From positions 1 through 42,264 of the forward strand of contig CAJBNH010000163.1 of assembly GCA_903955385.1 (NCBI GenBank): a DNA stretch of 42,264 nucleotides. Direction: 5' to 3'. The notes beneath the pieces were generated by a model. It ran no database searches. It saw only the letters and a program-made list of their open reading frames with translations, and had not been told where the DNA came from. This stretch comes from an uncultured Myxococcales bacterium. Its GTDB lineage: Bacteria > Myxococcota_A > UBA9042. A program made the position numbers and the translations under genes. Shown here piece by piece: positions 15,092-16,220 of the stretch (position 1 is the first letter of the stretch; the number at the start of each line of letters is the position of its first letter).

Positions 15092-15345
15092 CCTGATGCC
15101 TCGTAGGGAGGACCCCATCATGGACGTGGACGGGCGGAGCGGCAAGGGTGCGGGGTGCTGGTGGCCCGATCGTACCCTGTTGGACCCCGATTCTCGAACC
15201 GCGCTCGGGTGGGGGCGATGCGCCTCGACAACTGGTTCTTGGGCCTCTTTGGCGTGGGTGCGGATTCTAGGATTGGACTGTGAAGCGTCATGACAGCAGC
15301 AAGATATGGAGCGGGTGAATCGGCCCAAGCCACCGGTGCCCGTAA
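15092..15345. other. gene-free stretch upstream of the barrel gene
   Basis: I see no gene here. A weak minus-strand promoter candidate has TACGAT (15174-15169) preceded after 18 bp by TTCGAG, which would start transcription about 70 bases before the ATG at 15091. The left end of the DUF559 cassette follows at 15346. Confidence 0.4.
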
Positions 15346-15392
15346 CCGATCGCGCCTCTCCCCGTCGCCTATCGGCGACACCCCTCTCCATG
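15346..15392. repeat. left 47-bp inverted repeat of the DUF559 cassette
   Basis: This 47-bp sequence is the reverse complement of 15957-16003, with mismatches only in the 4-bp loop and one further base. It contains its own hairpin (CGTCGCC-TATC-GGCGACA region). Its inner end CCCCTCTCCATG (15381-15392) also pairs with CATGGAGAGGGG at 15431-15442, and that second hairpin contains the stop codon of the DUF559 gene. Confidence 0.9.
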
Positions 15393-15393
15393 C

Positions 15394-15825
15394 TCACCCG
15401 ACGGCGGCGGCTCGCCGCCCGTCTGGGCGACATGGAGAGGGGATGTGCACTCCAGGTCTGGGTTGGAGTGCAGCGCGGATGGCGGCCAGCACGCCTTCGA
15501 TGTCGGTGAGGACAGCCTGGTTCGGGAAGCGAATGAGGCGGTACCCACGGCGCGCTATCGCGGCGCTACGCGCCTCATCCGACTCGCGTTGCTCCAGGTG
15601 ACCCGGACCGTCGAGTTCGACGACCAAGTGCGCGTCCACGCAGCAGAAGTCAGCGATGTAGGTCCCCAATGGATGCTGCCTCCGGAACTTGCGGCCAAGC
15701 GCCGAGCCTTTCAATCGTTCCCACAGCATCGCTTCGGCGCGGGTGGGCTGGCGTCGCATCGCCTTGGCGGACGACAGGATTTGATGACGATACCCGGCGT
15801 GGACCTTGTCGTGGTGCTGCGTCAT
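15394..15825 (-). CDS. DUF559 family protein, Vsr-like endonuclease fold
   Basis: The 143-residue protein matches the DUF559 family of PD-(D/E)XK-type nuclease-fold proteins related to very-short-patch repair endonucleases. It has an N-terminal helix with LRRxxTxAE-like [18 protein letters not shown], the core [16 protein letters not shown] with the catalytic-type Asp, [10 protein letters not shown] with the second acidic position, and [11 protein letters not shown] near the end. The stop codon lies in the loop of a hairpin at 15381-15442. The gene is enclosed by 47-bp inverted repeats and has no close operon partner. No strong ribosome-binding site is seen before the ATG at 15825. Whether it cuts DNA is unknown. 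Confidence 0.85.
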
Positions 15826-15908
15826 GGCTGGTCGTCACCGTCAGGGAGTCAGTCCCCGCCTGTATGATCGGCGTGTGGGGGAAAACGACGCGCGGCTCGA
15901 ACCAGAAT

Positions 15909-15966
15909 CCCCTCTCTACGTCGCCCCGCGTGCTGCCCCACGCAGCACGGGGCGAGCGTGGAGAGG
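15909..15966. repeat. inner hairpin at the right end of the DUF559 cassette
   Basis: CCCCTCTCTACG (15909-15920) pairs imperfectly with CGTGGAGAGGGG (15955-15966 region). A further GCGTGCTGCC/GGCAGCACGG-like arm set between them makes a long hairpin. It mirrors the hairpin at 15381-15442 on the other side of the gene, although the loop sequences differ. Confidence 0.75.
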
Positions 15967-16003
15967 GGTGTCGCCGCCCGGCGACGGGGAGAGGCGCGAT
16001 CGG
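15957..16003. repeat. right 47-bp inverted repeat of the DUF559 cassette
   Basis: Reverse complement of the left repeat at 15346-15392 with about five differences. The loop reads GCCC instead of the left copy's GATA on this strand. Together the two repeats bound a unit of 658 bp holding only the DUF559 gene. Confidence 0.9.
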
Positions 16004-16191
16004 CGCAGTCCTCGCCATGGCGTCTACGGTGGGCGCTCGTGCGCTGGGTGCTCGTGTCTTCCCCATCGCGGGGATACACCGCCTCCCTTCGTTTTGCCGA
16101 GTTACGATTCAAGTGCCGGCTCCTGCCCGCGTATGTCCGCGTCATCAGATCGAAGATCAGTCCGCCGATGCGCCCACAAGGGCAATGCAAC
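16004..16191. other. gene-free stretch before the dnaE2 promoter
   Basis: No gene, repeat or clear hairpin was recognised between the end of the DUF559 cassette and the dnaE2 promoter. An open frame runs through from upstream in the dnaE2 frame, but its composition does not look coding and the dnaE2 start is clear at 16238. Confidence 0.5.
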
Positions 16192-16220
16192 TCGACAACT
16201 GAACACCCGTTCAGTATCCT
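16192..16220 (+). promoter_or_regulatory. dnaE2 promoter with embedded LexA/SOS operator
   Basis: TCGACA (16192-16197) and TATCCT (16215-16220) are 17 bp apart. The palindrome ACTGAACACCCGTTCAGT (16198-16215, perfect 7-bp arms) fills the spacer, the same arrangement as at imuB. Only the central four bases differ between the two operators. Predicted transcription starts near 16227, about 11 bases before the ATG. This is the clearest evidence for a shared SOS regulon in the window. Confidence 0.85.

Follow-up and report, generated by a model that had tools for sequence, protein, structure and literature searches.

A DUF559 nuclease gene and the tagged hairpins that enclose it seem to act as partners in spreading repeats, a system that has apparently not been described before. 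The cassette that they form lies in a stretch of 42,264 nucleotides from an uncultured Myxococcales bacterium, referred to here as the window, and is probably the gene-bearing "master" copy of a REP/REPIN-like family, whose partner would be a Vsr-fold nuclease and not a RAYT. As far as tested, the cassette is not a classical homing element or an insertion sequence. Searches of the open-access literature on DUF559/COG2852, Vsr, and GIY-YIG together with repeats or palindromes turned up no account of such an association.

The cassette consists of one DUF559 gene between 54-nt inverted repeats, which are 91% complementary (Table 1). An earlier note, made from the letters of the window, had described 47-bp inverted repeats with about five differences, most of them in a loop, and the alignment confirms this, since the 47-nt core of both arms has about five differing positions, mostly inside the small head loop. 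The inverted-repeat score of the cassette is 40.5; 500 dinucleotide shuffles reached at most 13.0, and 802 controls with the same spacing along the window at most 12.5. The second hairpin noted inward of each arm is real as well, and both end regions of the cassette, folded as single-stranded DNA, show z values of -6.5 and -4.5. The stop codon (15394-15396), which the note had placed in a hairpin loop, falls within the stem of the left hairpin according to the predicted fold. Each end is a short tagged palindrome, namely, the head CTC(A/T)CCCC followed by the hairpin, and a conserved GTAG tag is absent from the ends aligned. The absence of a transposase gene holds for the inside of the cassette, where DUF559 is the only gene. 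CGATCG borders the cassette left and right, although this palindrome runs on into the repeat without a break. Farther out, a 22-nt direct repeat (86%) is found at 15213-15234 and 16180-16201, which may be due to chance.

Table 1. Features of the DUF559 cassette, with positions in the window
Feature	Position	Strand	Basis
Left terminal repeat: head CGCGCCTCTCCCCGTCGCC and start of hairpin	15346..15399	+	pairs with 15950-16003, 91%
Left-end small head stem-loop, GTCGCC-TATC-GGCGAC	15364..15379	+	predicted fold
Left long hairpin CCCCTCTCCATG...CATGGAGAGGGG, includes the stop codon of the gene	15381..15442	+	inverted-repeat alignment, predicted fold
DUF559 (PF04480) Vsr-fold nuclease gene, 143 aa	15394..15825	-	Pfam, alignment, structure model
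Right long hairpin, outer stem CCCCTCTC...GAGAGGGG	15909..15968	-	predicted fold
Right terminal repeat, inverted copy	15950..16003	-	inverted-repeat alignment
Right-end small head stem-loop	15970..15985	-	predicted fold

The open reading frame matches the DUF559 family with an E value of 1.5e-32, the only other Pfam match of the protein being a sub-threshold REase family. The residues D59, E70, D72, and H76 (window numbering) are invariant across 29 sequences. The AlphaFold model (pLDDT 85) has its structural matches in Neisseria gonorrhoeae NGO0050 (3hrl) and the catalytic domain of I-Bth0305I (3r3p, TM 0.75), with a weaker match to Escherichia coli Vsr. By model and alignment, the window protein thus has a homing-nuclease fold with conserved acidic residues. 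The resemblance to I-Bth0305I lies in this fold, whereas no intron, intein, or cognate-allele insertion was found for the DUF559 cassette. A PADLOC search of the cassette as a defence system gave zero matches, and phages yielded only three DUF559 matches, each below 36% identity.

The host genome (5.3 Mb) carries a single DUF559 gene, and the cassette-end sequence is found without DUF559 at seven more places (contigs C17, C143, C131, C158, C134, and C87, the last one twice). The copies on C17, C143, and C131 are inverted pairs of about 200 bp, in which a short linker replaces the gene of the window, and by eye, none of the three has a target duplication. The ends therefore do not always bracket DUF559. 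Ends at many sites unrelated to DUF559, which the earlier note had counted against its own proposal, are literally what we find at the seven places, and the cassette idea survives, because a REP/RAYT-like system predicts one nuclease gene together with gene-less pairs. In its outline, the proposal of a mobile or self-maintaining cassette finds support in the dispersed ends, the bracketing in many phyla, and the I-Bth0305I fold. Of the suggested likeness to a homing-type or transposase-mobilised unit, the homing fold stands, while neither a transposase in the cassette nor a consistent target duplication or clean empty site at the loci examined was found.

In an alignment of twelve ends, the head and proximal stem CCCCTCTCC...GGAGAGGGG hardly vary. 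The distal stems are of several unrelated sequences, and the ones that were folded still form pairs. Among the 27 distinct spacers from CTCACCCC to CCCTCTCC in the host and its relatives, 23 form a stem (32% after shuffling), and 12 different sequences make up these stems; the spacer structure is preserved despite sequence change. Some genomes of the family to which the host belongs, without a detected full DUF559, also contain a few such repeats (up to 7), most of these genomes being fragmented drafts. Two DUF559 genomes of the same class (G035 and G038) are without this repeat pattern. In G035, the DUF559 gene lies between direct, not inverted, hairpin-containing repeats of about 78 bp (L023:1-680). 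Outside the repeats, the gene-less host copies share flanking modules of about 50 to 80 bp and of several kinds (C17, C87, C134, C143, C158, and C131), which the window cassette seems to be without, and some of the modules stand alone as fragments (C114, C134:22959, and C184).

The survey of bracketing comprised 80 DUF559 loci of GTDB genomes from many phyla, picked by protein similarity alone, and compared the best inverted repeat across the gene with all sliding controls in the same locus. The bracketing repeats beat all in-locus controls in 41 of the 73 loci with enough flank (1.7 expected), and about 44% of the loci fail to beat every control. In Sphingomonadales, 25/29 DUF559 loci beat the controls. 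A common design, CCCTCACCCC-n-CCCTCTCCC-loop-GGGAGAGGG, recurs with variants in the repeats of Rickettsiales, Cyanobacteria, Bacteroidota, Chloroflexota, Alphaproteobacteria, and other groups. The groups in which the enclosed gene is DUF559 include Bacteroidota, Proteobacteria, Cyanobacteria, and Chloroflexota. In 36 of 106 loci, none of the 105 other right ends fits the left end as well as its own does. Repeat similarity also tracks protein similarity, with a Mantel r of 0.37 (p 0.0005) over 56 bracketed loci, host phylogeny being uncorrected. On pSymB of Sinorhizobium meliloti (accession no. CP090106), a DUF559 gene is located between nearly identical inverted repeats of about 114 bp, with a copy of ISRm16 adjoining (L172:3850-4560).

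The hairpin pattern is dispersed in 40 of 49 genomes, namely, 48 genomes with DUF559 loci of the survey and the host, and the reversed-pattern control is zero or low in most of them. In Hymenobacter, many of the hairpin copies are paired at a distance of 60 to 90 bp. The dependence on the nuclease is seen in 197 Sphingomonadales genomes, where five or more hairpins, the abundance cut used, occur in 46 of the 94 genomes with a strong DUF559 match (E <= 1e-20) versus 0 of the 103 genomes without (Fisher 7.6e-19); this p value is only indicative, because the genomes are related to one another and the association tests ignore host phylogeny. The numbers also correlate in the same 197 genomes (rho 0.43). 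A CCCTCTCC-type repeat is present on at least one side of all 29 Sphingomonadales DUF559 loci, compared to 1 of 177 distant segments.

The hairpins are located at both ends of the gene and overlap its stop codon, and their stems are preserved while the stem sequence varies, which would also fit regulatory or protective elements (terminators, attenuators, or mRNA stabilisers) by which the level of a dangerous nuclease is held down, the dispersal being due to another enzyme, for example, a RAYT. We consider this explanation unlikely, as it accounts neither for tens of gene-less hairpins only in genomes with a strong DUF559 nor for the mutual match of the cassette ends as inverted repeats with the head motif.

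The conservation of the ends was followed in a cassette between sufB and sufC, first met on a plasmid of Sphingomonas parapaucimobilis and represented by 24 sequences, the plasmid record and 23 Sphingomonas genomes. The two repeats of this cassette have mean pairwise identities of 95% and 98%. The adjoining spacer reaches 62%, the DUF559 gene 64%, and the third codon positions of the suf genes 66-71%. The dN/dS of the nuclease is about 0.30. Together with the identity figures of the 24 cassettes, this value indicates, at the level of sequence, a nuclease under purifying selection and cassette ends that are maintained, either by selection or by concerted exchange with dispersed copies. What fills the sufB-sufC gap depends on the species: it may be a DUF559 cassette, a cassette with GIY-YIG, a repeat pair that lacks the gene, or another insert. 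A near-identical empty allele was not found at this position in Sphingomonas, where the gap contents vary among species. The gap seems to be insertion-prone in Sphingomonas, and at one locus, a gene-less repeat pair replaces the cassette.

The DUF559 gene of E. coli K-12 is ycjD, located between sapF and fabI, where CCCTCTCCC overlaps the 3' end of the gene and a GGGAGAGGGTTAGGGTGAGGG copy follows downstream. In E. coli H240, where a ycjD-type DUF559 locus adjoins the repeat motif, CCCTCACCCYNNCCCTCTCCC occurs 33 times if up to 2 mismatches are allowed, and the reversed control is zero. The box C repeats of E. coli are described as 22 to 32 copies of 50 to 56 nt with stem-loops (PMC2267715). 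Setting copy number and length beside this published description, we infer that the CCCTCACCCYNNCCCTCTCCC repeats are box C. If ycjD and box C form one system, the idea becomes testable in the best-known laboratory bacterium.

At three E. coli intergenic gaps, yhjE-yhjG, nrdA-nrdB, and bacA-cca, strains that lack the box C-like repeat carry a cluster of RAYT-type REP sequences in its place. Two candidates for an empty site in E. coli were rejected: in strains without ycjD, the place upstream of fabI is taken by genes for efflux and TetR, and the shorter allele at alx-sstT is a deletion between two hairpins. No filled and empty pair was found for the S. meliloti CP090106 flanks or the Azospirillum locus, and the loci examined in E. 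coli, S. meliloti, Azospirillum, and Sphingomonas gave neither a clean empty site nor a consistent target duplication.

The alternation of box C-like repeats and RAYT-type REPs at the three E. coli loci and the varied sufB-sufC gap contents among species, together with the homing endonuclease fold, could mean that DUF559 homes into repeat sites, cutting other intergenic palindromes so that repair copies a repeat-bearing template and repeat families swap at fixed addresses. This explanation appears improbable to us; the loci examined are few, gaps that tolerate inserts would look alike, and the choice of the template is invisible in sequence.

We prefer to read the cassette as the master copy of a repeat family with DUF559 as its partner. 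Bracketing, dispersal, co-occurrence in one order, end conservation, and the nuclease fold are observed, and from them we infer that the nuclease moves the repeat. Two inverted tagged hairpins (head CTC-A/T-CCCC, then CCCTCTCC...GGAGAGGG) enclose the gene for a single-domain Vsr-fold DUF559 nuclease, and the same repeat is scattered through the genome without the gene, partly as inverted pairs. In the proposed mechanism, the nuclease would recognise the tagged hairpin, probably in its extruded or single-stranded state in replication or repair, and would cut at or near it. Host repair would then carry copies of the repeat pair, or of the cassette as a whole, to other sites. Overall, such a system would work like REP/RAYT, with a hydrolytic homing-type nuclease replacing the HUH transposase. 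The GTAG REP/REPIN-RAYT system (REPtron) resembles it in the short tagged palindromes, the inverted pairs, the dispersed copies, and the repeat-flanked unit bearing a gene; there, however, the partner is an HUH tyrosine transposase and the tag is GTAG, whereas here we find a Vsr-fold DUF559 and a CTCACCCC-like tag. The master-copy reading would give a likely biological role to a large and widespread family annotated as of "unknown function", and abundant repeats for which an enzyme was missing would gain a candidate.

The inverted ends and the gene-less derivatives of about 200 bp also resemble a conventional transposon with its MITEs, moved by a transposase encoded elsewhere with DUF559 as a passenger. 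We regard this as very unlikely, since a passenger would vary, while the same nuclease family is enclosed in many phyla, and a consistent target duplication was not found. The cassette also differs from an insertion sequence or MITE in having DUF559, and not a transposase, between its terminal inverted repeats.

To our knowledge, no role of Vsr in the spread of repeats is described. Of the three near neighbours tested in the window, one encodes a DnaE-type polymerase, one is HipA-like, and one has no Pfam match; a cytosine methyltransferase is not among them. The Caulobacter VsrA, which has a DUF559 domain, is functionally linked to a cytosine methyltransferase, and Vsr-type genes unlinked to such an enzyme exist as well (PMC12907096). 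Despite this link and the Vsr-like fold of the window protein, an ordinary Vsr-like mismatch-repair nuclease with coincidental repeats is the least probable explanation and, with bracketing and genome-wide association far above controls, strongly disfavoured as the sole one, the roles in mismatch repair and as a repeat partner not being mutually exclusive.

On a broader view, which we put forward tentatively, bacterial REP repeats might represent, in place of a single RAYT system, several convergent partnerships of a nuclease and a repeat, each joining one solitary nuclease fold to one type of palindrome, namely, HUH/RAYT with GTAG, DUF559 with CTCACCCC-CCCTCTCC (including ycjD/box C), and GIY-YIG with CGTC, where homing-type nucleases would spread repeats via host repair without a transposase. 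The CGTC REPs are tagged palindromes, occurring mostly as dimers, and reportedly have no dedicated transposase (Di Nocera 2013, PMC3733652). They are of another sequence than the repeats of the DUF559 cassettes and bracket small GIY-YIG genes instead of DUF559. In Sphingomonadales, the inverted repeats beat the controls at 26 of 27 small GIY-YIG loci. CGTC REPs are present at 26/27 of these loci and CCCTCTCC-type repeats at 0/27, and the CGTC type is found at 0/29 DUF559 loci; the repeat type is specific to its nuclease. The genome-wide association is weaker, with five or more CGTC REPs in 28/105 versus 5/92 genomes, the GIY-YIG search having started from a single protein. If the pairing of GIY-YIG and CGTC holds, it answers a question left open in 2013. 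The sufB-sufC gap of Azospirillum lipoferum likewise contains a gene for a GIY-YIG nuclease, with CGTC REP dimers bracketing it (L215:1000-1640).
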